A stretch of 64,000 bases of DNA, taken from assembly GCF_900113715.1 (NCBI RefSeq), contig NZ_FOQK01000015.1, positions 1-64,000 on the forward strand. Reading direction: 5' to 3'. The position numbers and the translations under genes were made by a program. The stretch comes from Pseudoselenomonas ruminantium (GTDB lineage Bacteria > Bacillota > Negativicutes > Selenomonadales > Selenomonadaceae). Under the pieces are notes generated by a model. That model was not told where the DNA came from, made no database searches, and saw only the letters and a list, made by a program, of their open reading frames with translations. Positions 5,758-28,953 of the stretch are shown piece by piece (the first letter of the stretch is position 1; the number at the start of each line of letters is the position of its first letter).

Positions 5758-6335
5758 TCACTCCTGACTCTTGCGGATGATCTTGGCGATATGGATCATC
5801 AGATAGAACTGCTCATCGCCGCTTACCGCATAGCGGTACTTGCGCGCCAGGAAGGCTGCAATCTTCTCGACACATTCATGGGCGCGCTGGTATTTCTTCT
5901 GTACCATCGCTTCCATCTCTTCGTCCACGTCGTCCTGCGGCGGATTCACTCCACTGAACATCCGCTGCGCAAAGAATTTCAGATGTGTGACAAAGCGGTA
6001 ATAGGGCAGGGAATCCTTGTCGAACTCGATGCCGCAGGTCCGCCGCACGATGTTGGAAATCTCTTCGATAAGATGCAAGATTTTATCAGCCATTGGCTGC
6101 TTGAGATCCAGCTGCGCATCGATGAGATGCATCGCGATGAAACCCGCTTCATCCTCGGGCATATCGACATCGAACTGCGCATCGAGCATCATCACGGCCT
6201 TTTCGGCCAGCGCAAACTCCTGCGGATAAAAACGCCGCGTCTCCCAAATATACCACGCCCCATAGCCACGACCTCGCAGCCATCCTCGTCGCTGGTCACG
6301 ATTACATTATTGTTCAATATCTTTTTTATCAGCAC
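5758..6335 (-). pseudogene. LicT/BglG-family antiterminator, broken by internal deletion and frameshift
   Basis: The gene starts at GTG 6333-6335 with a GGGGG ribosome site and encodes an intact co-antiterminator RNA-binding start (LIKKILNNNVIV...VAMGRG). At about 6259-6262 the reading shifts frame and jumps straight to IWETRRFYPQEFALAEKAV, which in LicT lies at the end of PRD1. PRD2 then runs normally (MPEDEAGFIAMHL..., LPYYRFVTHLKFFAQR, ending at 5758). Compared with a typical 275-280 residue LicT, roughly 90 residues of PRD1 are missing and the halves are out of frame. Without the frameshift the product would still lack most of PRD1. It stands at the head of the porin/GH3/esterase operon, where such regulators normally sit. 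Confidence 0.82.
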
Positions 6336-9710: not shown

Positions 9711-11195
9711 TTACGAAGCAACCACCGGCGGCAGGATGCCATGGTAGAACAGATACGAAATGCCAAGGCCTACCCAGAGGATAAAGCCGAATAGCGCAAG
9801 GGCATAGACGCCGACGATGCGGCCAAGTCCTTCGGCCCAAAGCTTGCGCACATTGGTAATGAGGCCGATGGAGAAGAAGCAAAGACCAAAGAAGATACTG
9901 CGCAACAAGTTGGCCTGTCCGGCACCAGCCCCAGCGGCTTTTACGATATCGGGATTCGTGATACCCCAGAGGAACACACCACCAAATACCACGAGAAAAC
10001 CAATCAGGAATTTCGGGAAACGATCGCCAATCTCGCGGAAGGAAACCTTGTAGGATTTACCTTCGCTGCGTTTGGTGCCGATCTGATAGACAGACCAGAC
10101 AACAGCCAGCACGAAGGCCCAAATACCGATAAACACATCGATGAACACCTTCGCCGTAGTGGCCGCCATCAGCGTCCAGCCCTCCTGATAATTCACGCCA
10201 TACTCAGCCAAGGCTTTAGCGCGGATCAGCGAATCGGTGATGGCCCCAGAGGCAATGGCACCGCCATCACTCTTGACGGCCAGGCCCATCCAGGCGCCAG
10301 CCACCAGCGGATCATCCGCAAAAAACGTGGTGGCAATCCACGGCAGGATCAATAGCTCCACCGCTACGAATACGATAATGACCGAAGAAAGCACCGTCGG
10401 CACGATTGCTCTGGCCCGAATGGCACTGCCCGTGGCAATCGCAGCGGCCACACCGCAGATGGAAATCCCCGAAGCCATCGGTGCCGCCCATTCCGGCGTA
10501 AACTTGAAGAACTTGCGAGCAATGATATAAACGACTGGCCAGTAAATCAGATACGCTTCAACTACCGCGCAGATACCGCGGAAAATAACGGTACTCGCCA
10601 GCCCCATCGCACCGACTGTCTTTATGGCAATTGTCATGCCTAAGATAACGATACCTGTTTTGATATACCACTCCGGCTTGGCAGCTGTGGACAGGAAGGC
10701 CGCGGCCTTCGGAAAGAAATTCCCGATGATAAGGCCAAGCACCAAGGCAATGACAAAGCCTAGTTCACCGAGCCCCAATGACCAGCCGATGCCAAACTTC
10801 TCCAGATTGTTCGGCGTAGCTGCCAAATAGGCAAAGTTTCCCGCAGTATTAGCAGCCACTGTTACCCAGTAGAGAATCGTAAAACCGGCCACAAAGCGCT
10901 TGACCGAACTTCCCATGAAGTACGCTCCCGCCGTCGTGAGGATGAGCAGGAACAAATATGTCGCCAGCATCGAGCCAAAGCCCCCGAGGAAAGCAAATTC
11001 CTTGGAATTCGGGGCCACGGCCTTGCCGATATCCGACCAGACATTGTACTTGGCGACCCATCCCAAAAGGTCAACACCTGCTGCCTGTCCTGCCCCCAAG
11101 GCAACGATCAAAAGCCCCAGCCATACGGCCCACCAATCTTCACTCTGGAAAAAGCCCGGCTTCTGTACGAGCAGTTCATGTGGTTCTGCCGTCAT
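9711..11195 (-). CDS. YeiH-family putative sulfate exporter (UPF0324)
   Basis: About 494 residues and 11-13 hydrophobic segments. Typical family blocks are VILGMTIAIKTVGAMG (near 175-190), GISICGVAAAIATGSAIRAR (near 250-270) and the glycine/alanine-rich SDGGAIASGAI (near 325). Family members are annotated as putative sulfate or sulfonate exporters, but transport direction is poorly proven. The start chosen is ATG 11193-11195, preceded by AAAGGAG; an upstream TTG would lack a ribosome site. The promoter is overlapped by a 14-bp-arm palindrome, and the leader holds a terminator hairpin, so expression is tightly controlled. Neighbouring cysE and the sulfate genes support a sulfur role. Confidence 0.8.
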   Translation of the reverse strand: MTAEPHELLVQKPGFFQSEDWWAVWLGLLIVALGAGQAAGVDLLGWVAKYNVWSDIGKAVAPNSKEFAFLGGFGSMLATYLFLLILTTAGAYFMGSSVKRFVAGFTILYWVTVAANTAGNFAYLAATPNNLEKFGIGWSLGLGELGFVIALVLGLIIGNFFPKAAAFLSTAAKPEWYIKTGIVILGMTIAIKTVGAMGLASTVIFRGICAVVEAYLIYWPVVYIIARKFFKFTPEWAAPMASGISICGVAAAIATGSAIRARAIVPTVLSSVIIVFVAVELLILPWIATTFFADDPLVAGAWMGLAVKSDGGAIASGAITDSLIRAKALAEYGVNYQEGWTLMAATTAKVFIDVFIGIWAFVLAVVWSVYQIGTKRSEGKSYKVSFREIGDRFPKFLIGFLVVFGGVFLWGITNPDIVKAAGAGAGQANLLRSIFFGLCFFSIGLITNVRKLWAEGLGRIVGVYALALFGFILWVGLGISYLFYHGILPPVVAS

Positions 11196-11265
11196 ACCAA
11201 TCAGCTCCTTTCTTACCAATTAACCCTGACAAATAATAACGATAAGTGCGAATAGAAACAAAAAA

Positions 11266-11314
11266 GAGGTTCCAAGGACATAGCCAGCCCAAAGCTGTAT
11301 GTCCTTGGAACCTC
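11266..11314 (-). terminator. Leader terminator (attenuator) upstream of the YeiH-family gene
   Basis: A perfect 17-bp stem (11266-11282 with 11298-11314) containing GAGGTTCCAAGGACATA, followed on the minus strand by TTTTTTG. It lies between the promoter at 11347-11375 and the ORF, so it would stop transcription before the gene unless opposed. No known riboswitch or T-box sequence was recognised. Confidence 0.8.
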
Positions 11315-11346
11315 CAATTTTTTGGTCAGTTCCTATCGTTGTTGAT

Positions 11347-15423: not shown

Positions 15424-16245
15424 TTAATGATTGCGCAGGTCGCAGGCCGGCTGCTCATAGTCGACGAGCTCCGTGATGGTCGGATGATCGCCGCAGACCG
15501 CGCAATCGTGATTGTGCGGAATCTTGACCTTGCGGAAGGTCATGGTCAGCGCATCATAAGTCAGCAGATAACCATTGAGCAAATCGCCGACACCGAGGAT
15601 ATACTTGAGGGCCTCCGTTGCCTGCAGGGTGCCAATGATACCGCCCATGACACCGAGCACGCCTGCCTGGCGGCAGGTGGGTACCGCGTCCTTCGGCGGC
15701 ATTGCCGGGAATACGCAGCGGTAGCAGGGCCCCTGTCCCGGCACATAGGTCATGAGCTGTCCCTGGAACCGAATGATTCCCGCATGGGAGTAAGCCTTCT
15801 GTTCCATGACACAGGCATCGTTGATCAGGAACTTCGCCGGGAAATTATCCGTGCCATCGATGATGAAATCGTAATCCTGGTCCCGGATGATGTCGCGGAT
15901 GTTGGCCGAAGTCACCAGCTCATTGTAAGTATGTACCGTTACATCGGGATTCATCGCGGCAATGGTCTCCTTGCCCGACTGGATTTTGGGCTTGCCCACA
16001 TCCTTCGTCTGATGGATGATCTGGCGCTGCAGATTGGAAAGGTCAACCACATCGAAATCCACCAGGCCAATCTGGCCAACGCCGGCGGCAGCCAGATACA
16101 TGGCCGCCGGGGCACCAAGGCCGCCAGTGCCGATGACCAGCACCTTGCCTCCCAGCAGTTTTTCCTGGCCCTTGCCGCCCACCTGCTGCAGGATGATATG
16201 GCGGGAATAGCGCTCAATCTGTTCATTCGTCAAGCTGACACTCAT
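15424..16245 (-). CDS. ThiF/MoeB/HesA-family adenylyltransferase (HcyF-like)
   Basis: 273 residues of the E1-like fold: nucleotide loop GTGGLGAPAAMYLAAAGVG (near 39-57), the arginine/glutamine motif SNLQRQIIH, the catalytic aspartate in DGTDNF (near 131), and zinc CxxC pairs (CYRC and CAVC). It adenylates the C-terminal glycine of a ThiS-like protein and allows conversion to a thiocarboxylate. The start overlaps the carrier stop (ATGA). The thiamine operon 0.4 kb upstream has thiS but no thiF, so this enzyme may serve both carriers (inference). Confidence 0.87.
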   Translation of the reverse strand: MSVSLTNEQIERYSRHIILQQVGGKGQEKLLGGKVLVIGTGGLGAPAAMYLAAAGVGQIGLVDFDVVDLSNLQRQIIHQTKDVGKPKIQSGKETIAAMNPDVTVHTYNELVTSANIRDIIRDQDYDFIIDGTDNFPAKFLINDACVMEQKAYSHAGIIRFQGQLMTYVPGQGPCYRCVFPAMPPKDAVPTCRQAGVLGVMGGIIGTLQATEALKYILGVGDLLNGYLLTYDALTMTFRKVKIPHNHDCAVCGDHPTITELVDYEQPACDLRNH

Positions 16246-16451
16246 CTTGCACCGCCTCCCATGAAGTACAGGAATTCCACCGTATCGCCATCTCCCACAA
16301 AGGTATTGTCAAAACCCGAATGATCCACGAATTCCCCATTCAGCTGCACCGTTACATATTCCGGCTGGTCGGCCTTTGCCACCACCAGCAGTTCTCTTAC
16401 ATTGATGGATTTCTCGATTTCCAGAGCTTCGCCATTGACCGTCAGTTTCAT
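16242..16451 (-). CDS. ThiS-like sulfur carrier with a GGGAR tail (HcyS-like)
   Basis: 69 residues from ATG 16449-16451, which follows a GGAGG ribosome site; a GTG inside that site is rejected as start. Ubiquitin-like beta-grasp pattern MKLTVNGEALEI...INVRELL...VTVQLNGEFV...GDTVEFLYFMGGGAR. ThiS and MoaD normally end in Gly-Gly, whereas this ends with two more residues, as in CysO/HcyS-type carriers that need a JAMM protease. It is first gene of the operon, 225 bp downstream of tenI, under a conserved leader RNA. Confidence 0.87.
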   Translation of the reverse strand: MKLTVNGEALEIEKSINVRELLVVAKADQPEYVTVQLNGEFVDHSGFDNTFVGDGDTVEFLYFMGGGAR

Positions 16452-16473
16452 TTTCTCTACCTCCACGTACTAG

Positions 16474-16641
16474 AAAAAGCCTATGAGAAACGCCAAGTTA
16501 TCCATAAATACACCTCGTGAAAAGATTCCACAGTGGTGTTCCATGCCCTGAGCGTTTCCCATAGGCTTCCGTTTATCGAATGACCTACGGTGATACCGTT
16601 CAATCATATTAAACCGATATGTTTTACAAATCGATAGTGAT
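16474..16641 (-). ncRNA. Conserved leader RNA with terminator, homocysteine operon (copy A)
   Basis: Between the promoter and hcyS lies a block (about 16569-16630) nearly identical to one ahead of the sulfate operon (28271-28335): ...AATATGATTRAACGG..., ACCGYAGGTCATTCGA, AAACGRAAGCCTATGG. It is followed by a terminator stem of 17 bp (16477-16493 with 16552-16568) and TTTTT. Possible structure: ACGGT-ATC-ACCGT hairpin, a distal TATCGA/TCGATA stem, and an alternative pairing of ACCGTAGG with GCCTATGG that would open the terminator. It is not a SAM-I, T-box or TPP sequence that I can recognise. Likely a sulfur-responsive transcription attenuator. Confidence 0.7.
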
Positions 16642-16670
16642 ATCTTACAACAACGCCTACGAAATGTCAA
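16642..16670 (-). promoter_or_regulatory. Sigma-70 promoter of the homocysteine (hcy) operon
   Basis: Minus-strand TTGACA (16665-16670), 17-nt spacer, TAAGAT (16642-16647), immediately after the tenI stop. Confidence 0.75.
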
Positions 16671-19826: not shown

Positions 19827-21554
19827 TCAGATAACATAGTCAAAGTAGAACTGCAAGCGGCGGTATTGGTTCAGGAAGAAATAACGGTTAGCAAACGCAG
19901 CTTTTACGCGAGGTTCCACGTGGCTCGAGGCCAGTTCCCGATAGACCGACAGCATTTCCTTCAGCTCCTTGGCCTTATAGACCTTGATGCCAAAGCCGCG
20001 GCCATTGATCAGTGGCCGCCCCGAATACTCATAGTCCGCCAGCGGCAGGATAGATTCGATCCTGCCCTGCCGCACCGAAACCGCTACCTGGTCGCGCAGG
20101 ATAAGGATGTCAAAATCGGCCGGATACTCGTAGCTGATGCCCCGGCGGGGAATCTCATCCCCCACCTGATAGGGTTTCTTGACGGCTGCGGCTACCTTCG
20201 TGACGTTGTAGCTTTCGATATCGTAGTAGAATTCATCGAAGACATCGCCCCGGGCGCGGATGCCGCCGTTCACAAAGGCGAAGCCTGCCCCCTCGTCGGC
20301 CTTTTCGGCGGCGACGACGATACCGCCGCCGGCCACATCATAGCCATCCACCAGCACGAACCGGCCCGTTGCCTGATGCTCCTGGAACACATCAAAGGCA
20401 ATGGCCTCCTTGAGGCTCAGGATGACTTCTGCCACATCGTTCAGCCGCAGTTCCTTGGCTCCCTCGCGGCTGTCGAGATTGGCCGCATCGATGGTCTTGA
20501 CGATGTCAGCCACCTCGGCCTCCACCTCCTGGGTGGCAAGCTTTAATTTGTAGGTACTGCCCTTGCGCAGAGGATTGCGCCCCATCCAGAATATCGAGGC
20601 CCGCAGGCGGTTGGACACGTGGGGGGCCTTGGCCCCAGGCGTCGTGATGATCTCACCGCGCTGGTTGAAGAACTCATCCCGGACGATGATGCCCGTGGAT
20701 TCCCCGGCCAAGGCGCGCTCCTTCTTGTCCCGCTCCTGCCAGTAGGCAATGGACTGGATGACCGTGCGGCGCCCCGATGGGTAGATGGCGATCTCATCGC
20801 CCACGGCGAGCTTGCCGGCCTCGATGCGTCCGGCAATGATGCGGCGGTCGTCGAATTTGAACACATCCTGTATGGGCAGGCGCAGATCCTTGTCGATAAT
20901 TTCTTTGCTGGCCTCGAGCAAATCGAGAGAATCCAGCAGCACCGGGCCATCATACCAAGGCATATTGGCCGACTCGGCGGCGATATTGTCGCCCTGATAC
21001 CCCGATACCGGCAAATAGCGCAGGGGCTTTACCCCCAGCGGTTCCAGGAACTCCTTCATATCGTCAGCAACCTTGTGGAATACTTCCTCGGAGTAGTCCA
21101 CCAAATCCATCTTGTTGACAACCACATAGACCTTCTCGATGCCCAGCAGGGACAGCATATAGCCATGGCGCTTGGACTGCTCCTGCACCCCCTGTTTGGC
21201 ATCAACAATCAAGAGAGCCGCATTGGCATTGGCTGCCCCCGAAATCATATTCTTGAGGAACTCCTTATGACCCGGTGCGTCGATGATGACGTACTCGCGC
21301 TTTTTCGTCGCAAACTGAATCTGGGTCGTATCAATCGTGATGCCCTGTTTCTGCTCTTCCTCAAAGGCATCGAGGAGATAGGCATACTCAAAGGGCTTGC
21401 CCGTTTCCCTGGCGATGCGCTTGACCTTGTCCACTGCGCCCTGGGGCAGGGAATCCGTATCGTAGAGCAGACGGCCGATGACCGTCGATTTGCCATGATC
21501 CACATGACCGACCACCACGATATGCAGACCTTCTTGTTTCAATTTCTCATCCAT
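19827..21554 (-). CDS. cysN: Sulfate adenylyltransferase large subunit (GTPase)
   Basis: 575 residues of the EF-Tu-like GTPase family: P-loop GHVDHGKST (16-24), switch motif DAPGHKE, and NKMD base motif near 147. It couples GTP hydrolysis to APS synthesis by CysD. Standard CysN is about 475 residues; the extra C-terminal 100 residues here are not an APS kinase, as no second P-loop is visible. Start and cysD stop overlap in TAATG. Last gene of the sulfate operon, followed by the thi promoter. Confidence 0.9.
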   Translation of the reverse strand: MDEKLKQEGLHIVVVGHVDHGKSTVIGRLLYDTDSLPQGAVDKVKRIARETGKPFEYAYLLDAFEEEQKQGITIDTTQIQFATKKREYVIIDAPGHKEFLKNMISGAANANAALLIVDAKQGVQEQSKRHGYMLSLLGIEKVYVVVNKMDLVDYSEEVFHKVADDMKEFLEPLGVKPLRYLPVSGYQGDNIAAESANMPWYDGPVLLDSLDLLEASKEIIDKDLRLPIQDVFKFDDRRIIAGRIEAGKLAVGDEIAIYPSGRRTVIQSIAYWQERDKKERALAGESTGIIVRDEFFNQRGEIITTPGAKAPHVSNRLRASIFWMGRNPLRKGSTYKLKLATQEVEAEVADIVKTIDAANLDSREGAKELRLNDVAEVILSLKEAIAFDVFQEHQATGRFVLVDGYDVAGGGIVVAAEKADEGAGFAFVNGGIRARGDVFDEFYYDIESYNVTKVAAAVKKPYQVGDEIPRRGISYEYPADFDILILRDQVAVSVRQGRIESILPLADYEYSGRPLINGRGFGIKVYKAKELKEMLSVYRELASSHVEPRVKAAFANRYFFLNQYRRLQFYFDYVI

Positions 21555-22360
21555 TACATATACCCCTCTTTACGCAGTTTCTGCATCGCATAAGCATCTT
21601 CCTGGTCCTGCTTACGCCCGGCACGCTCGCCAGTCTTCGTATGTTTCAATTCTTCAATGATCTTGTCAAGGGTATCAGCCTCCGACTCAATCTGTCCCGT
21701 GCAGCAGGCACAGCCCAGGCTGCGGTAACGCTTGCCGTTCTTGGCAAAATACAGGTCGATGATGGGAATATTCTCCCGGCGGATGTATTCCCAGATATCC
21801 AGCTCACTCCAAGCAAGAATCGGATGCACGCGGATGTGGTTGCCCTTGGGGAAATCCGTCTTGAACTGATTCCAGAGCTCCGGCGGCTGGTTGGTGTAGT
21901 CCCAGCCATCATCCTGGGTACGCTCGGAGAAAACCCGCTCCTTGGAGCGGGAGCCCTCCTCGTCGCGGCGCACCCCGACGATAAGACCGTCAAAGCCGTG
22001 CTGCTTCACCACCTGACGGAGGCCTTCGGTCTTGAGGGCCTTGCAGCAGGCCAGACGCCCCTTGTCGGGGCCGATGCCCGCATGTATGGCCTCCCAGTTC
22101 GTATGGACGATGAGGTCCAGGCCCAATTCCTTGGCTACCCGGTCGCGGTAGGCAATCATCTCGGGAATCTTGTGTTTCGTATCCACATGGATGAAGGGAA
22201 AGGGTACATGGCCGTAAAAGGCTTTCTTGGCCAGCCACAGCAGCACCGTCGAATCCTTGCCGATTGACCAGAGCATGCCCAGCTTGCCCAATTTCTTATA
22301 CGCCTCCCGGAGGATGTAGATACTCTCCGCCTCCAGTTGATCCAAATGATCCATTGCCAT
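21554..22360 (-). CDS. cysD: Sulfate adenylyltransferase small subunit
   Basis: 268 residues of the PAPS-reductase-like ATP pyrophosphatase fold: SIGKDSTVLLWLA (PP-loop near 32-44), HVDTKHKIPEM, VGVRRDEEGSRSKERVFSER and the C-terminal CACCTGQIES motif. It transfers AMP from ATP to sulfate, giving APS. It precedes cysN and follows aprB by 18 bp. Confidence 0.93.
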   Translation of the reverse strand: MAMDHLDQLEAESIYILREAYKKLGKLGMLWSIGKDSTVLLWLAKKAFYGHVPFPFIHVDTKHKIPEMIAYRDRVAKELGLDLIVHTNWEAIHAGIGPDKGRLACCKALKTEGLRQVVKQHGFDGLIVGVRRDEEGSRSKERVFSERTQDDGWDYTNQPPELWNQFKTDFPKGNHIRVHPILAWSELDIWEYIRRENIPIIDLYFAKNGKRYRSLGCACCTGQIESEADTLDKIIEELKHTKTGERAGRKQDQEDAYAMQKLRKEGYM

Positions 22361-22378
22361 TGTTATCGTCTCCTAACC

Positions 22379-22690
22379 TCAATACGCATTTGCTTTATTT
22401 TTTGCTACGATGATTTCCTGCTCACTGCCATCGGGAAGTCTTAGCTGCCAGGTAAGCGACGCCGCCGAATCATGGGCATAAAGCCGGCCGCCAGCACCGC
22501 CAAGATCAGCGCTCAGATAGTAGAAAATCGCATCCCGCGGGCACTCCTTGACGCAGGCCGTGCAGCCCCAGCAGTCCCGCACCTCGCGGATGGCGGCTTT
22601 CCCCGCCGTCACTTCCAATAGATTTCCCGGACAGACCTCCGTGCAGCGGCCGCAGCCCACGCACTTTTCCGGTTCAATACTGATGCTCAT
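22379..22690 (-). CDS. aprB: APS reductase beta subunit (two 4Fe-4S ferredoxin)
   Basis: 103 residues with two cluster motifs: CVGCGRCTEVCPG (near 10-22) and CWGCTACVKECP (near 41-52). The CWGC pattern and the following AIFYYLSADLGG resemble AprB of adenylylsulfate reductases. The chain is shorter than the roughly 150-residue dissimilatory AprB because the C-terminal tail is missing. It overlaps the aprA stop by 17 bp. It carries electrons to the flavin of AprA. Confidence 0.82.
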   Translation of the reverse strand: MSISIEPEKCVGCGRCTEVCPGNLLEVTAGKAAIREVRDCWGCTACVKECPRDAIFYYLSADLGGAGGRLYAHDSAASLTWQLRLPDGSEQEIIVAKNKANAY

Positions 22691-24362
22691 ACCGTTCCCC
22701 CCGCTTGACCAGATCCCGATAGATGATTTTCACCTTTCCCTCCTCCAGCCGCGAATTGACATATTTTTCCAGCGCCGGATCTTTGCCCGGATAGTCAAGA
22801 TTCTCGGCAAAGGAGTGCCAACGCGTCTCCCGGCGGGCCTTCAGATGCTCGATGAGCACGCGGCAGATGAGCAGCCGCTCCTGCAGTTCAAAGAGCTGCA
22901 CCAGCTCATAGCCATCCGCCGCCCGCAAGTCCTCACTGAGCCTTGTCAGCCGCCCGATGTGTTTGGCCGCCAGGTCCAGCTGCCTTTCCGTATAGCGATA
23001 GCCAGTGGTAATCCCCCCTGCATACTCATCCATGACCTGCTGCATGGCCTCCTCAAGCCCCGCCGCCGTAAACAGCGGACTAGCTGCTGGTGGCTTCAGC
23101 AGTGCCGTGACCCGGTCCAAAATCCTCTGGCGGACCACTGGGGGAAGGTCTGGCTGCCCCTGCCCTTCCGCATAGGCGGCGGCACTTTCCGCAGCAATCT
23201 TTCCCTCCACAAAAGCACCGGTCACATATTTCTGCGGGCAGCCGCCAGCCACGTCGCCAGCTGCGAACAGCCCCGGCAGCGTCGTCGCCCGCACCGCATC
23301 GATCCAATAGCCGCTGGCCGTATGGCCGCCCACCACATAGGGCTCGGAGCCCTCCACCTCCACATTGGCGCTGGCAGGGCCTAGCCCCGTCTCGCGCCAC
23401 TTCATGGTCTGGGCCGGTGCCATGTTGAGATAGGCCCGCTCCAGCGAAGCCTGCTGCACCTTGGTGATGCCCTCGGTTTCCAGATAGCAGGGGCCCCGCC
23501 CGGCCAGATTCTCGCTGACCACGGCATACAGGCGTTCTGACGTCGTATTGCCGTATCTATGCTGATAGCGCTCCCCCGCTGCGTTGACCTGAGCCGCGCC
23601 GACGCCCTGGGCCAATGTTCCCGTCGGCGCAATGGTACCCTTGCAGCGCAGGGCGATGAACCGCATCTCAAAGGTCGTCATCTCCGCGCCAGCCCGCAGG
23701 CCCATGGCATAGCCAGCCCCGGTATTGAAGGGACTGTACCACATCTTGTGGCGGGAACGGCCCGGATGATTGGGCCGGTAGAGCCCGGCCGCACCGCCCG
23801 TGGCACAGATGACGGCCTTGGCCCGCAGGAAATACAACTTCTCCTGCCGCACACCGACGCCCCAGGCGCCAGTCACCGAGCCATCATCAGCCTGCAAATA
23901 GTCGACGACACTTACATGTTCCAGCACTTCTACATTTTTACTCTTGCGCACCGCCATCGCCAGCAGCGGCTTGATATTTTCACCATTTATCTTGAGATTG
24001 CGCCACCCACGGGAGACATACTGGCCCCGCTCATCCTTCAGGATGACAAGTCCCAGCTCTTCCATATGACGGGTCACTTCGTTGAGCCCCTGGGACATCG
24101 TCAGCAGCAGGTCATCGCGCACAATGCCCGCCGCGTCTTTCGCCGCGTAATCGGCATAATCCTCGGGACTGTGCCCCGGCGTGATATAGGCATTCAGGGC
24201 ATTGACCCCGGCAGCCAGACAGCCGCTGCGCTTGATGCCGGCCTTATCCACCAACAGCACCCTGAGCTCCGGATGGTCTGTGGCCAAGGTAATGGCCGCA
24301 TAGCAGCCAGCGGCACCGCCGCCCACAATCAGCACATCGGCTGTCTTATCCAAAACTTCCAT
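22674..24362 (-). CDS. aprA: APS reductase alpha subunit (FAD flavoprotein)
   Basis: About 562 residues of the fumarate reductase/AprA flavoprotein family. The FAD loop is VLIVGGGAAGCYAAITLA (near 10-27); NALNAYITPG and GRSRHKMWYSPFNTGAGYAMG suit the AprA substrate site, and YVTGAFVEGKIAAESAA lies near the C-terminal FAD site. In this operon, with sulfate uptake and CysDN but no CysC or CysH, it most likely reduces APS to sulfite in assimilation. The start chosen is ATG 24360-24362 (AGGA upstream); a longer frame would overlap cysA. Confidence 0.83.
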   Translation of the reverse strand: MEVLDKTADVLIVGGGAAGCYAAITLATDHPELRVLLVDKAGIKRSGCLAAGVNALNAYITPGHSPEDYADYAAKDAAGIVRDDLLLTMSQGLNEVTRHMEELGLVILKDERGQYVSRGWRNLKINGENIKPLLAMAVRKSKNVEVLEHVSVVDYLQADDGSVTGAWGVGVRQEKLYFLRAKAVICATGGAAGLYRPNHPGRSRHKMWYSPFNTGAGYAMGLRAGAEMTTFEMRFIALRCKGTIAPTGTLAQGVGAAQVNAAGERYQHRYGNTTSERLYAVVSENLAGRGPCYLETEGITKVQQASLERAYLNMAPAQTMKWRETGLGPASANVEVEGSEPYVVGGHTASGYWIDAVRATTLPGLFAAGDVAGGCPQKYVTGAFVEGKIAAESAAAYAEGQGQPDLPPVVRQRILDRVTALLKPPAASPLFTAAGLEEAMQQVMDEYAGGITTGYRYTERQLDLAAKHIGRLTRLSEDLRAADGYELVQLFELQERLLICRVLIEHLKARRETRWHSFAENLDYPGKDPALEKYVNSRLEEGKVKIIYRDLVKRGERYEHQY

Positions 24363-24381
24363 TCGTCTTTCACATCCTGTA

Positions 24382-25446
24382 TCAAATAACCACCGACTCT
24401 TCCTGTTTCGCCCGGTTTTCAATGATCTGGGTCTTCCCGCCGGCGAAACTGTAGACGCGGTGAATCAAAACCAGCGCCCGGTCCCCCTCCTGCAAGGGTT
24501 TCTTTTCGAGGCTGCGCCAGCCATATAAGAGCTGGCCTTTGACCTCCACCACCACTTGCAGGCTGCTGCCCCGGAAATAGGTGGCCCTGACCGTGCCCTG
24601 TTCCGCCGCCAGGGGCATCAGGATTTCCTCCTCCTCGGCAGCAATCTCCAGGAATTCCGGCCGCAGGATGCCCTCATGGCTGCCTGCGCCATTCGTAAAT
24701 CCCTTGAACACCGTATAGTCGGGAACATGCACCGACTCACCGATGAAATCCGCCACAAAGGGCGTCTCGGGATGCTGATAGATGGCAGCTGGCGAACCAG
24801 CCTGCTCCACATGGCCGTGATTCGTGATGATGATGTCATCGGCCACCTCCACCGCCTCATCCTGGTCATGGGTGACAAAGATACTGGTGATGCCCAGCTG
24901 ATGGATGGTGGCCCGCAGCCATTGTCTCAGTTCCTTGCGCACCTTCGCATCGATAGCCGCAAAAGGTTCATCCAATAACAGAAGCTCCGGCTCTGGGGCC
25001 AAGGCCCGTGCAAAGGCTACCCGCTGCCGCTGGCCCCCTGAAAGCTGCTGCGGATAACGGGTGGCAAATTCTTTAAGCCCAATAAGCTCCACAAGCTTAT
25101 CCACCCGCGCGGCAATTTCCTTTGGCGGCACCTTCTGTACCTTGAGCCCAAAGGCGATATTTTCCCATACCGTCATATGGCGGAACAATGCGTAGTTCTG
25201 GAACACAAAACCAATGCCGCGCTTCCCCGCCGGCAGGTCGTTGACCCGCTTGCCCGCAATGAAGATATCCCCGCTGTCGGGATGCTCGAGGCCTGCAATC
25301 ATGCGCAGGATGGTGGTCTTGCCACTGCCCGACGGTCCCAAGAGGCCGATAAGTTTTCCCTTTTCCACCGTCAGATTCACGTCATCTGAGGCCTTGAACG
25401 TGCCAAAATTCTTATGGATATGTTTAAGTTCTACTTCAATTGCCAT
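24382..25446 (-). CDS. cysA: Sulfate ABC transporter, ATP-binding protein
   Basis: 354 residues: Walker A GPSGSGKTT (near 35-43), signature LSGGQRQRVAFARAL, Walker B ELLLLDEPF, H-loop VTHDQDEA, then a TOBE-type C-terminal regulatory domain. CysA family ATPase energising sulfate/thiosulfate import. It overlaps cysW by 11 bp. Confidence 0.93.
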   Translation of the reverse strand: MAIEVELKHIHKNFGTFKASDDVNLTVEKGKLIGLLGPSGSGKTTILRMIAGLEHPDSGDIFIAGKRVNDLPAGKRGIGFVFQNYALFRHMTVWENIAFGLKVQKVPPKEIAARVDKLVELIGLKEFATRYPQQLSGGQRQRVAFARALAPEPELLLLDEPFAAIDAKVRKELRQWLRATIHQLGITSIFVTHDQDEAVEVADDIIITNHGHVEQAGSPAAIYQHPETPFVADFIGESVHVPDYTVFKGFTNGAGSHEGILRPEFLEIAAEEEEILMPLAAEQGTVRATYFRGSSLQVVVEVKGQLLYGWRSLEKKPLQEGDRALVLIHRVYSFAGGKTQIIENRAKQEESVVI

Positions 25447-26263
25447 TTCTTAGCCCCCGTTTCGCCCGCCATTCCACCAGATTCCGCAGGATCAGGATGA
25501 TGACGGCCAGAATCACCAGAATCGATGCCACGGCAAAGGCCGCCGTGAAATTGTATTCGTTATAGAGGATTTCGATATGCAGCGGCAGGGTATTCGTCTT
25601 GCCCCGGATATGTCCCGAAACTACCGACACCGCACCGAATTCCCCCAGGGCCCTGGCGGTACAGAGTATCACGCCATAGAGCAACGCCCACTTGATATTC
25701 GGCAGGGTCACCCGCCGGAAAATCGTCCAGCCGCTGGCCCCCATCGTCGCCGCAGCCTCCTCCTCGCTGCGCCCCTGGGCCTCCATGACCGGCACCAGCT
25801 CCCGGGTGATGAACGGAAAGGTCACGAACACCGTGGCGAGGATGATGCCCGGCACCGCGAAGATGATCGCGATGTGCTCAGCCCGCAGGAAGGGATAGAG
25901 GGGACTCATGCGGCCAAACAGGATGACAAACAGCAAACCGGCCACCACCGGAGAAATGGCAAAAGGCAGATCCAGCAGCGAACTCCAAAAAGCCTTGCCG
26001 CGGAAATCGTATTTCGTGAGCAGCCAGGCCGAAGCCAGGCCAAATACCGTATTGCCAAGCACCGCCGCCACCGTTGCCTCTAAGGTCAGATACAGCGCCT
26101 TGCGCGCAAAGGGCTCGTCGAGAGCGGCCAGATAAGCCTGCCAGCCCTTGGCCAACGCCTCGCTGGCCACCAGGACCAGCGTCAGCACCAGCATGACCAG
26201 CAGGAAGGCAGCAGCCAGTCCGATAAGCCCCCATTGACTGAATTTATGCGGTTTCACTGCCAA
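25436..26263 (-). CDS. cysW: Sulfate ABC transporter permease CysW
   Basis: 275 residues, six TM segments, with the EAA loop EEEAAATMGASGWTIFRRVTLPN (near 168-190) that contacts CysA. The start is a TTG at 26261-26263, eight bases after GGGGG; an in-frame GTG two codons later is the alternative. Four bases separate it from cysT. Confidence 0.92.
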   Translation of the reverse strand: MAVKPHKFSQWGLIGLAAAFLLVMLVLTLVLVASEALAKGWQAYLAALDEPFARKALYLTLEATVAAVLGNTVFGLASAWLLTKYDFRGKAFWSSLLDLPFAISPVVAGLLFVILFGRMSPLYPFLRAEHIAIIFAVPGIILATVFVTFPFITRELVPVMEAQGRSEEEAAATMGASGWTIFRRVTLPNIKWALLYGVILCTARALGEFGAVSVVSGHIRGKTNTLPLHIEILYNEYNFTAAFAVASILVILAVIILILRNLVEWRAKRGLRNGN

Positions 26264-26266
26264 CTT

Positions 26267-27097
26267 TCACACCCCCTGTTTCTGCACGCGATAGCGCTGA
26301 TACCCATTGATGAGCAATAAGATGGCAAAGGACAAGAGCAGCAGCACCAGCGCAATGGCCGCCGCTGCCTGATAGTCGAACTGCTCCAGCTTAGCCATGA
26401 TCAAGAGCGGTGCGATTTCCGTCTCATAGGGAAGATTGCCCGCAATGAAAACCACGCTGCCGTACTCGCCGACCCCCCGGGCAAAGGCCAAAGAAAAACC
26501 CGTGAGCAGCGGCGATACCAGCTCAGGAAAAATTACACGGCGAAAGGTCAGCCAATCGCCTGCCCCCAGCAAAGATGCCGCCTCCTCCACCTGCGGGTCG
26601 AGGTCCCGCAGCACCGGCTGGACACTGCGGGCCACAAAGGGCAGGCCCACAAAGACCATCGCTAACGTAATGCCCAGCGGCGAAAAGGCCGAGGGAATCC
26701 CAAATGCATACAGGTACTGGCCCAGCCAGCCGTTTTCCGCATAGAGCGTCGTAAGCGCAATGCCCGCCACCGCCGTGGGCAGGGCAAAGGGCAGATCGAT
26801 AAGGCCATCGAGAACCCCCTTGCCGAAGAACTCATAGCGGACGAGCACCCAGGCCAGCAGCAACCCGAAGACACCATTCATCACCGCTGCCGCCAGTGCC
26901 GTCAGCAGGCTGATATAATACGCATGGAAGACGCGGTAATCCAGCACCACTGCAAAAAATTTCTCCCAGCCCATGCCTGCGGTATACAGGACAAAAGCGG
27001 CCAGCGGAATCAATAAGATAAGCGAGAGATAAAAGAATGTGATGCCGCAGGTAAAGCGATATCCCGGAATGACTTTCTTATTGCTGAAACTGCTCAC
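26267..27097 (-). CDS. cysT: Sulfate ABC transporter permease CysT
   Basis: 276 residues with six TM helices and the coupling loop VEEAASLLGAGDWLTFRRVIFPEL (near 172-195). It forms the heterodimeric channel with CysW. It lies 21 bp after the binding protein gene. Confidence 0.92.
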   Translation of the reverse strand: MSSFSNKKVIPGYRFTCGITFFYLSLILLIPLAAFVLYTAGMGWEKFFAVVLDYRVFHAYYISLLTALAAAVMNGVFGLLLAWVLVRYEFFGKGVLDGLIDLPFALPTAVAGIALTTLYAENGWLGQYLYAFGIPSAFSPLGITLAMVFVGLPFVARSVQPVLRDLDPQVEEAASLLGAGDWLTFRRVIFPELVSPLLTGFSLAFARGVGEYGSVVFIAGNLPYETEIAPLLIMAKLEQFDYQAAAAIALVLLLLSFAILLLINGYQRYRVQKQGV

Positions 27098-27118
27098 TTT
27101 CCTGCCTCCTTCACCGTG

Positions 27119-28150
27119 TCATTTCTTCTCATAGATCTGGTCAAAGGTACCGCCATCGGCGAAATGCTCCTTCTGGGCCTTTGTCCAGCCGCCAAAAGCC
27201 TCATCGATCGTCACGAGCTTGAGGGGCAGGAATACCTTAGCATACTTAGCGGCCACCTCTTTGTCACGGGGACGGTAGAAATTCTTAGCGGCGATTTCCT
27301 GGCCCTCTTTGCTGTAGAGGAAGTTGATGTAGGCCTCGGCCAGCTTACGCGTGCCCTTGCGCTCCACCACTTCATCGACTACCGCCACCGACGGCTCCGC
27401 CAGGATGCTGATGGACGGCACTACGATCTCATAATCGTCCGGTGCATCCTTCGCCGACAGCAGGGCTTCATTCTCCCAGGCAATCAAGACATCCCCCTGC
27501 CCGCGCTGGACGAAGGAAGTCGTTGCACCACGGGCACCGGAATCCAGTGCCACCACATGGCTGAACAGTACCTTGAGGAAATCCTTTATCTTGGCCTCAT
27601 CGCCATTGTTATGCTCCTTGGCATATTCCCAAGCTGCCAGATAGTTCCAGCGGGCACCGCCTGACGTCTTCGGATTCGGCGTCACGATCTGCACATCGTC
27701 CCGCACCAGGTCGTTCCAGTCGTGGATGTTCTTCGGGTTGCCCTTGCGCACCAGGAAGACGATCGTCGAGGTATAAGGTGCCGAGTTATCGGGGAATTTC
27801 TTGATCCAGTCCTTGTCGATGAGACCTGCCTGGGCAATCTCATCCACGTCATAGGCCAAGGCCAGCGTGACCACATCTGCCTCGAGCCCATCGCGCACCG
27901 ACCGGGCCTGCTTGCCCGAACCGCCATGAGACTGGGAGAAGGTCACGTCTTCGCCGGATTCTTTTTTCCATTCCTCCTTGAACTTCGCATTGAACTCCGC
28001 GAAGAGCTCACGGGTCGGGTCATAGGAGACATTGAGGAACTCCTTGCCAGCGCTGCCGCTGTCTGCCGTTGCATTGCCGCCGCACCCCGTCAGCGCCCCC
28101 ATGGCCAATACCAAACCTGCCGCAAGTCCAAACCATTTTTTCGCCTTCAT
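27119..28150 (-). CDS. sbp: Sulfate/thiosulfate-binding lipoprotein
   Basis: About 343 residues, SBP family. N-terminal lipoprotein signal with lipobox LTGCGG (Cys near 23), so it is anchored to the inner membrane. Family motifs: [24 protein letters not shown] and [19 protein letters not shown]. The start at ATG 28148-28150 is eight bases after GAGGAG. First gene of the sulfate operon, behind the conserved leader RNA. Confidence 0.93.
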
Positions 28151-28202
28151 TTCAAACACTCCTCATCCTTCATACTAATGACCTATATCAGAAACATATA
28201 CG

Positions 28203-28341
28203 AAAAAAGCCTATGGACGCACAGAACTCTCAGACTTATCCTCGCGGTTCCTGTACGGCTCCATAGGCTTTCGTTTTTCGAATGACCTGCGGTTATCCGT
28301 TTAATCATATTTATCATATATGCTTTCTTTCGATTGTTAAT
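28203..28341 (-). ncRNA. Conserved leader RNA with terminator, sulfate operon (copy B)
   Basis: Same organisation as 16474-16641. A conserved block (28271-28335) shares ACCGCAGGTCATTCGA, AAACGAAAGCCTATGG and AATATGATTAAACGG with copy A; loop sequences differ. The terminator stem is AAGCCTATGGA / TCCATAGGCTT (28207-28217 with 28260-28270) followed by TTTTTT. The conserved 5' block together with divergent terminator loops points to selection on an aptamer-like part rather than a recent duplication. Confidence 0.72.
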
Positions 28342-28370
28342 AGTCTATATCGGCTCAAGCCATTTGTCAA
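28342..28370 (-). promoter_or_regulatory. Sigma-70 promoter of the sulfate operon
   Basis: Minus-strand TTGACA (28365-28370), 17-nt spacer, TAGACT (28342-28347), directly upstream of leader copy B. Confidence 0.75.
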
Positions 28371-28396: not shown

Positions 28397-28744
28397 TCAG
28401 ATGCCCTCACCATCCAATCCGGTAAAGCGCTGTTTCTCCGTCCGCTCCATCTGCACGACGCTTCCACGCTTCACCACGATGACCAGCCGCCCATACTGCA
28501 GACGGCAGAATTCCTGCCGGATATGCTCGGCAACATGCTGGCATTGTTTTTCACTCCATACCTTCTCGTCCCGCTGGCAGCCAAAACTTTCGATCCGCAG
28601 TTTTTCCTTCCACTCCACCTGGACCAAAATTCCATCCTGCGCGACCAAAACCACTTCACCGTAGCTGATGCGCTGCAAGATTTTGAAGATCTCAGCCATG
28701 ACGCCAGCAGGAACTTCTCCCACACACAATTTTCTCCCGGCCAT
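28397..28744 (-). CDS. DUF2292 (YezD-like) protein with two tandem domains
   Basis: 115 residues from ATG 28742-28744 (GGGGG ribosome site). Two similar units: ILQRISYGEVVLVAQDGILVQVEWKEKLRI (about 22-51) and IRQEFCRLQYGRLVIVVKRGSVVQMERTEKQRF (about 75-107). Bacterial DUF2292 proteins are usually single-domain and about 50-60 residues; this is a duplication. Function unknown. It stands directly before the sulfate operon with its own promoter (TTGACG-17-TATTAT, near 28.79-28.82 kb). Confidence 0.72.
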   Translation of the reverse strand: MAGRKLCVGEVPAGVMAEIFKILQRISYGEVVLVAQDGILVQVEWKEKLRIESFGCQRDEKVWSEKQCQHVAEHIRQEFCRLQYGRLVIVVKRGSVVQMERTEKQRFTGLDGEGI

Positions 28745-28953
28745 CCATCCGCCCCCTAAAATATACTTATCAGATATGTTTAATTTATATTGTATAATAT
28801 ACCTTTTCTTTGCATTCGTCAACCCATTTCAGGAAAAATAATGCAATAGTGTAAACAAGCATACTTACAGTATTTGACAATTCAACGGGGAAATGATATG
28901 TTGGACCTGATAGACATAGTATCTGAACACAGACAGAAAGGATGGTTTATGCT

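Follow-up and report, generated by a model that had tools for sequence, protein, structure and literature searches.

A short hairpin overlapping leader terminators ahead of sulfur genes in Pseudoselenomonas ruminantium, and its co-occurrence with DUF2292 proteins

The 64,000-nt stretch of Pseudoselenomonas ruminantium DNA analysed here (the window; contig NZ_FOQK01000015.1) carries on its minus strand an eight-gene sulfate uptake and reduction cluster, which is preceded by a leader (28370-28203) and, upstream of this leader, by a gene for a DUF2292 (OscA/YezD family) protein (Table 1). A related leader lies ahead of hcyS, and a further hairpin-terminator copy (11331-11260), overlooked in the initial annotation, lies ahead of a YeiH-like gene. 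The names first given to the eight genes (sbp, cysT, cysW, a cysA-type ATPase, aprA, an aprB-like gene, cysD and cysN) agree with NCBIfam, the aprB-like gene scoring below the aprB cut-off. The statement that the DUF2292 gene has its own promoter fits a promoter-like TTGACG-17-TATTAT sequence recognized by consensus only; in the sbp leader the spacer between TTGACA and TAGACT is likewise 17 bp.

Table 1. Features of the sbp, hcyS and third leaders and neighbouring genes in the window
Feature	Positions	Strand	Evidence
DUF2292 (OscA/YezD family) gene, tandem domain pair; candidate trans-acting factor	28400..28744	-	Pfam, co-occurrence, structure model
P1-type dyad CATAT-CTGATAA-GTATA ahead of DUF2292, no core hairpin	28762..28778	-	17.2 bits, E 0.57, weak alone
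sbp leader, promoter-like -35 TTGACA (28370-28365) and -10 TAGACT (28347-28342)	28342..28370	-	Consensus only
sbp leader, dyad CATAT-N7-ATATG (CATA-N9-TATG)	28306..28322	-	Spacing test; stands alone in relatives
sbp leader, core hairpin AGGU-CA-UUCG-AAAAA-CGAA-A-GCCU (very probable antiterminator)	28265..28288	-	R1/R2/R3 matches, covariation
sbp leader, intrinsic terminator (hairpin 28268-28209, T6 28208-28203)	28203..28268	-	Fold, energies, growing-transcript fold
sbp-cysT-cysW-cysA-aprA-aprB-cysD-cysN	19827..28159	-	NCBIfam, ORFs; putative operon from order and strand
hcyS leader, promoter-like -35/-10	16642..16670	-	Consensus only
hcyS leader, dyad CATAT-CGGTTTA-ATATG	16605..16621	-	Model match, sequence
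hcyS leader, core hairpin AGGU-CA-UUCG-AUAAA-CGGA-A-GCCU	16563..16586	-	R1/R2/R3 matches
hcyS leader, terminator with T5	16474..16566	-	Fold, energies, sequence
hcyS (ThiS family), then ThiF-family and JAB-domain genes	16242..16457	-	Pfam
Third core hairpin AACU-GA-CCAA-AAAA-UUGG-A-GGUU	11309..11331	-	R3 28.3 bits, E 5e-5 in window
Third copy, terminator overlapping hairpin 3' arm	11260..11312	-	Fold, sequence
YeiH-like gene, putative sulfate-export family	9711..11195 (ORF 9711-11219)	-	TIGR00698 E 1e-8, below cut-off (NCBIfam)

The block common to the sbp and hcyS leaders (query bases 20-85) shows 84% identity in a search of the whole genome (E 8.3e-13), which bears out the earlier description of the sbp leader as a second copy complete with terminator. 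A 50-nt pattern built from both copies, for which no match was expected by chance (100 shuffles), found the sbp copy alone because the hcyS copy carries an indel. Both leaders fold better than their shuffled counterparts, with z-scores of -4.1 (sbp) and -7.3 (hcyS) and none of 200 shuffles each equalling them. The sequence GCCUAUGG forms the 5' arm of the sbp terminator and overlaps the 3' arm of a short core hairpin. As had been stated, the two leaders have terminator loops of unrelated sequence; the helix lengths given for them (11 and 17 bp) are roughly right but describe the outer helix only, since in the folds the sbp terminator has an outer helix of ∼11-13 bp and a further inner helix of 9 bp, the outer helix of the hcyS terminator being longer. 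The third copy keeps the architecture with different stems, and two letter versions of the core hairpin thus coexist in the window. The same leaders were also found in contigs of S. ruminantium GACV-9, WCT3 and SIG241, S. ruminis, S. bovis, S. montiformis and Mitsuokella jalaludinii.

The core hairpin measures 23-24 nt and consists of 4 bp, an asymmetric internal loop ([GCA]A opposite A), a further 4 bp and an A-rich loop of 4-5 nt. By DNA search the block was found in nine of 22 genomes of the genus, while model R1, built from 13 sequences, matches 19 of 189 genomes of the family, and model R2 matches 25 of the 189 and 26 of 380 genomes of the class. A pattern scan of GTDB contigs returned 60 stretches; R2 gives 29 bits or more to 34 of them, all from Selenomonas, Selenomonadaceae, Selenomonadales or Mitsuokella records, and the other 26 come from scattered taxa and either reach at most 24 bits or are unmatched. 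The stem letters differ in another Selenomonas lineage, where sbp is preceded by AACU-GA-CCAA-AAAAA-UUGG-A-GGUU, and genus g9 carries GGCU-AA-UUAG-AAAA-CUAA-A-GGCU and close variants ahead of both sbp and hcyS. A descriptor of the architecture (4 bp, VA bulge, 4 bp, loop of 3-6, A, 4 bp from G, with the terminator arm at that G) is passed by 21 of 60 and 7 of 40 sbp/hcyS upstream regions (28 of 100, many of them orthologous, the regions coming mostly from genomes or genes without an R2 match), compared with 3 of 1200 and 8 of 800 dinucleotide shuffles (11 of 2000).

Compensatory change in the stems is extensive. Across 43 cores, 98.0% of cells are paired, seven of the eight pairs have a two-sided change, and 55 cells are two-sided, compared with at most six in slid-arm controls; because a pairing descriptor selected these cores, the percentage of pairing and the constancy of A, A and G follow by construction. 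Among 500 shuffles none reached the number of cells, the paired percentage or the score, whereas 12 reached the pair count and 28 the pair types. In A3, whose 23 rows were gathered by sequence and R1 and aligned to the R1 structure, covariation over P1 (the CAUAU/AUAUG pairing of the dyad), P2 and the hairpin extends to seven of 17 pairs and 10 cells, the share of the hairpin being three of eight pairs and five cells; no shuffle of 500 reached four of the measures and six reached the fifth. Altogether, 79 loci yield 58 distinct cores, in which 12 different upper stems and 16 different lower stems occur. Of the 58, 36 have GA as the 5' bulge, 14 CA and eight AA; as closing pair 54 have U-G and four C-G; and the loop, for which the descriptor allowed 3-6 nt, has 4 nt in 40 and 5 nt in 18. 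An upstream hairpin that overlaps the core ('copy A', GAUU-GA-ACGG...CCGU-A-GGUC) was rejected as a second copy of the motif, its covariation being matched by 138 of 500 shuffles; its pairing is present in A2, but six of the 13 sequences break one pair, and it is a possible anti-antiterminator.

The terminator starts at the 3' arm of the core in 42 of 43 A6 rows, in all three window copies and at 30 of 33 sites chosen by model R3 (those outside the family or in G070), compared with 194 of 860, 12 of 60 and 93 of 660 cases, respectively, when the same test was applied to shuffled downstream sequence. In two loci (L043 and L058) GAGU/GCUC replaces the AGGU/GCCU stem, accompanied by a change in the terminator 3' arm; two mutually exclusive structures are therefore tied together, and the suggestion that the terminator may be tuned separately does not fully hold, its 5' arm being the 3' arm of the hairpin. 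For the sbp leader, the core alone has an energy of -4.8 kcal/mol, or -8.1 with outer CCG/UGG pairs, and the terminator -29.0. In folds of the growing transcript the GCCU arm pairs within the core until the terminator 3' arm has been made and then switches, the one exception being the earliest hcyS point, at which the arm is unpaired. The weak core, the strong terminator and the late switch suggest that termination would be the default and that read-through would require something to hold the core; the hairpin is very probably an antiterminator. Loci L056 and L057 have no visible terminator, and there the same 3' arm, by eye, adjoins the ribosome-binding site of DUF2292. In S. montiformis, a TPP riboswitch lies downstream of the DUF2292 gene (L056:1965-2083).

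The CATA-N9-TATG dyad, located right after the -10 and before the ribosome-binding site, persists alone in sbp/hcyS relatives that have no R2 match. Among 100 sbp/hcyS upstream regions, an arm spacing of 9 occurs in 22 (0.35 expected), a spacing of 0 in 15 (0.55 expected) and a spacing of 18 in eight (0.5 expected), with none at 8 or 10. The hairpin accompanies none of the 22 regions with spacing 9 which, as the regions were mostly picked for a missing R2 match, shows that the dyad can stand alone rather than how often it does so. The exact dyad is present in 16 of the 23 A3 hairpin leaders, and genus g11 has, by eye, the hairpin without the dyad. The single functional core of about 65-70 nt proposed in the initial annotation thus resolves into two separable modules, the dyad and the 23-24-nt hairpin. 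As the spacing of its arms is fixed while the sequence between them is free, the dyad near the transcription start is, on sequence grounds, probably a DNA operator. LysR-type operators follow the rule T-N11-A; for the dyad it is the spacing that was examined.

Other repeated sequences were observed in the upstream regions. A spacer-less dyad, CATATATG, occurs in L156, L157, L158, L162 and L249 and ahead of sbp in L140, L143-L145 and L148, and in the hcyS cases it sits upstream of the -35. A palindrome of approximately TTACACCTATTGACATAATAGGTGTAA covers the -35 of both sbp and DUF2292 promoters in the other Selenomonas lineage and in g22 (L138, L149, L205, L212-L218 and L222) and is probably another sulfur operator. 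The g11 sbp genes that have no hairpin share a short block, approximately TTATAAAATAATCC...CTGTCAAAA, right before the ribosome-binding site (L180, L193, L227, L228, L234, L236, L246, L258 and L260).

Model R3, trained on 43 cores that all pass the descriptor, has matches at E ≤ 0.05 in 136 of the 380 genomes of the class (74 of the 189 family members and 62 of the 191 others), of which ∼19 could be chance matches if its rough E-values hold, and gives up to 16 matches in one genome. In the genome of the window itself the genome-wide search returned two matches, the third copy having come from the search of the window, and the filters of R3 searches therefore undercount real copies. Weak candidates (L003-L007) were separately noted in the genome of the window. 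The hairpin is often located ahead of cysK, metY, ssuA, metN or hcyS. Among the R1 matches examined, the gene behind is hcyS, sbp, a metY-like gene or DUF2292, apart from L045, which precedes an AcsV-like gene.

Thirty-nine sites were inspected, from genomes outside the family and from G069 and G070, mostly the best scoring and with orthologous repeats included; 21 lie ahead of a sulfur-related gene. Nine of these genes pass a curated cut-off (SsuA, two cysK, two DUF2292, two homocysteine synthases, a sulfopropanediol dehydratase and a NIL-domain ABC ATPase), for four a sulfur family gives the best or near-best match but below its cut-off (RuBisCO-like, YeiH-like, methionine aminotransferase-like and MetN), and eight were named by eye without a scan. 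Nine sites are ambiguous (sulfite/nitrite reductase-like genes, parts of amino-acid or cystine-type ABC transporters and a symporter), five are ahead of corrinoid/C1 genes and four ahead of other or unknown genes. According to the accessible text of one report, corrinoid MtaA-like clusters are linked to methyl-sulfur or methyl-selenium metabolism (PMC10418091). Individual loci included one with two divergent hairpins ahead of AcsV-like corrinoid-activation and URO-D family genes (L073, in G161), two near-identical leader copies in a genome of another family with, by eye, no obvious sulfur gene directly behind (L069 and L070, in G272), and one in which a SAM riboswitch directly downstream of the hairpin (L304:760-859) precedes a methionine-type aminotransferase, placing two sulfur signals in tandem.

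The window DUF2292 protein scores 73.5 bits with PF10055, for which the Pfam gathering score is 22, but 37.9 bits with the OscA equivalog NF033785, for which the cut-off is 85, and is therefore regarded as carrying a homologous domain rather than called OscA itself. In its model a helix-strand-strand unit occurs twice (mean pLDDT 83), and with 18 K+R and 16 D+E the protein has a near-neutral net charge. Fold searches of the PDB were uninformative (best Foldseek E 0.075, best VIA Z 4.5), the top VIA rows being Rai1/Dom3Z RNA-processing enzymes at Z ≤ 4.5, inside the stated noise range of the tool; a PDB sequence search gave a single match at E 0.98, and a plasmid search with a 43-residue piece found no relatives. 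The family also occurs in the control genome of B. subtilis, and the DUF2292 gene is sometimes itself under the hairpin element.

Presence of the hairpin follows that of DUF2292, which was detected in 83 of the 189 family genomes. At E ≤ 0.05, 69 family genomes have both, five R3 only, 14 DUF2292 only and 101 neither (Fisher 5e-31), and at E ≤ 0.001 the counts are 61, 3, 22 and 103. Of the 14 with DUF2292 and no R3 match, one (G166) has a hairpin by descriptor; the five with an R3 match and no DUF2292 have completeness of 91, 80, 70, 82 and 96%. The association persists when the count is restricted to the 88 genomes carrying sbp or hcyS, of which 46 have both, none R3 only, five DUF2292 only and 37 neither, at E ≤ 0.01 and with G166 added by hand on its descriptor hairpin (L149), which R3 did not match; by our own count, at E ≤ 0.05 G130 would move to R3 only and G183 to both. 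Absence of the block from relatives that keep the operon, named in the initial annotation as what would refute it, is thus seen in many genomes (the 37 with neither), and the claim is therefore restricted to a subset of lineages, not refuted. Within genera (both/R3 only/DUF2292 only/neither), the association is seen in g1 (21/0/0/1), g11 (21/3/3/39) and g23 (2/0/0/5), with none of its own in g3 (0/1/1/14), g13 (1/1/0/0), g19 (7/0/4/0), g22 (2/0/4/0), g27 (2/0/1/1) or g29 (1/0/1/1); over the nine genera the CMH p-value is 2e-12, the limits of genera for unlisted genomes being taken from handle order. Outside the family, DUF2292 was present in all 41 chosen R3-positive genomes (from 62) and in two of 39 chosen R3-negative genomes (from 129), the chosen negatives being mostly smaller. 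A 32-genome check of three protein families gave, with and without hairpin, 17 of 17 vs 2 of 15 for DUF2292, 4 of 17 vs 7 of 15 for CAT_RBD and 14 of 17 vs 11 of 15 for ANTAR, the ANTAR count including one match below cut-off (G113) and the negatives including G069 and G183, which R3 later matched (E 1.8e-5 and 0.02). CAT_RBD does not track the hairpin, and ANTAR is missing from hairpin genomes G089, G098 and G109; both were rejected as the obligate factor. Co-occurrence with DUF2292 may also reflect a shared sulfur lifestyle.

Starting from the computed hairpin with its compensatory stems, the terminator overlap, the many sulfur genes that follow it and its association with DUF2292 across genomes, the following mechanism is proposed. 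By default, the strong intrinsic terminator would form and transcription would stop ahead of sbp. The short hairpin would fold first on the emerging RNA, taking the terminator 5' arm as its own 3' arm, and because both structures use this one arm the terminator would be blocked for as long as the hairpin persists. Under sulfur limitation a trans-acting factor would hold the hairpin and the operon would be read through; this factor would most likely be the small tandem-domain DUF2292 protein encoded directly upstream of the operon. The CATA-N9-TATG dyad near the transcription start would separately serve as the operator of a transcription factor. This reading of the leader as a whole, a sulfur-limitation attenuator combining a hairpin held in trans, most likely by DUF2292, with a separate dyad operator, is the one slightly favoured. 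That the switch is ON under sulfur limitation is likely, and DUF2292 is a candidate for direct hairpin binding with about an even chance of being so. More tentatively, and at somewhat less than even likelihood, DUF2292 could represent a new family of RNA-binding antiterminators that recognizes a minimal hairpin with an asymmetric loop and turns on a sulfur-acquisition regulon across much of the Negativicutes, as many as 16 leaders being targeted in one genome. If the proposal is correct, sulfur genes in the Negativicutes would be governed as a regulon through RNA antitermination, a role that falls to SAM riboswitches, T-boxes or DNA-binding regulators in related bacteria. It would also supply a testable molecular role for DUF2292, a conserved family with no function found in the literature searched. 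The RNA is short, which makes direct binding assays and structural studies feasible.

Among the alternatives, the hairpin could be a riboswitch whose internal loop binds a metabolite that reports sulfur status (e.g., O-acetylserine or another starvation signal), DUF2292 being a mere lifestyle neighbour; conservation of the internal loop and of the A-rich loop, the existence of two expression platforms (a terminator or, by eye in L056 and L057, a position next to the ribosome-binding site) and the tandem arrangement with an S-box in L304 are all compatible with this. However, a minimal element of 23-24 nt with one small internal loop is very small for an aptamer, and R3 matches track DUF2292 even among the sbp/hcyS genomes, which makes a riboswitch unlikely. 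It could also be that another RNA-binding protein recognizes the hairpin and DUF2292 acts elsewhere in the pathway, as co-occurrence does not show contact and the protein families compared numbered three; this is rendered improbable by the failure of both CAT_RBD and ANTAR to follow the pattern and by the finding that DUF2292 is sometimes itself under the element.

In the initial annotation the whole block of 65-70 nt formed one unit, and P1 could accordingly be the stem of an aptamer within a single RNA domain, the block being common to both copies and close relatives and P1 being paired in 88.7% of A3 cells with one two-sided change. It is the letters of P1 rather than its pairing that are conserved, however, and the separate occurrence of P1 and hairpin, together with the strong preference for spacing 9, leaves a one-domain structure very doubtful. 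Finally, plain intergenic terminators or leader-peptide attenuation, with an incidental hairpin, would fit the short open frames that by eye cross the block in both copies, but the indel shifts the frame between copies while the nucleotides are kept, for which reason a leader peptide was rejected, and an incidental hairpin is at odds with the compensatory stem changes and with recurrence ahead of sulfur genes; this explanation is largely refuted and has hardly any likelihood left.

At the gathering score no Rfam 15 family matches the element in the window and 40 loci (20 + 20), the TPP element of L056 and the S-box of L304 both lying outside it, and for three short stretches searched at a permissive threshold all matches were below the gathering score. 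S-box (SAM) and T-box elements control sulfur genes regulon-wide through terminators; the hairpin element is distinct from both by the Rfam search, and the S-box of L304 is separate from it and downstream. In outline the architecture resembles the RAT of LicT/SacY/BglG systems, in which a short internal-loop hairpin shares sequence with the terminator's 5' arm and permits read-through for as long as it is held. The same overlap is seen here (30 of the 33 R3-chosen sites and all three window copies), but a CAT_RBD protein is present in only four of 17 hairpin genomes, and RAT loops and target genes differ from those of the hairpin element. A fragment of a CAT_RBD (LicT-type antiterminator) gene, apparently truncated, lies in the window at 6249-6329 on the minus strand, in a frame of 75 aa. 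In ANTAR-controlled antiterminators a hairpin also overlaps the terminator, but these have two hairpins with six-base loops, whereas the present element has one, with loops of 4-5 nt, and lacks the paired hexanucleotide-loop feature.

The thiS motif/HMP-PP riboswitch is, in the accessible text of its description, a compact ON-type element interleaved with a terminator and found near ThiS-family genes, as here, but has a conserved terminator loop, whereas the loops here differ between both leaders and among relatives, and its genes are those of HET-P/thiamin, whereas those here are largely of sulfur acquisition, of sbp, cysK, metY, ssuA and metN type (PMC6478431). The hairpin element is not described in the accessible portions of open-access papers on DUF2292/OscA/YezD, Negativicutes antiterminators or Selenomonas RNA motifs (including PMC2965389 and PMC11109978), nor do those on DUF2292/OscA/YezD report RNA binding by the family. 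The window protein shares Pfam DUF2292 with OscA and YezD, and its position next to sbp has a parallel in Pseudomonas, where oscA also neighbours sbp (PMC2996968, as far as its accessible text goes). The same text, citing Viti 2009, describes OscA as a protein of unknown function and oscA and sbp of Pseudomonas corrugata as one unit, which is overexpressed upon exposure to chromate, a response linked to sulfate starvation, and without oscA the organism is chromate-sensitive (PMC2996968). The proposed pairing of DUF2292 protein and hairpin RNA may also lie behind the sulfur-starvation roles of OscA in Pseudomonas and YezD in Bacillus.
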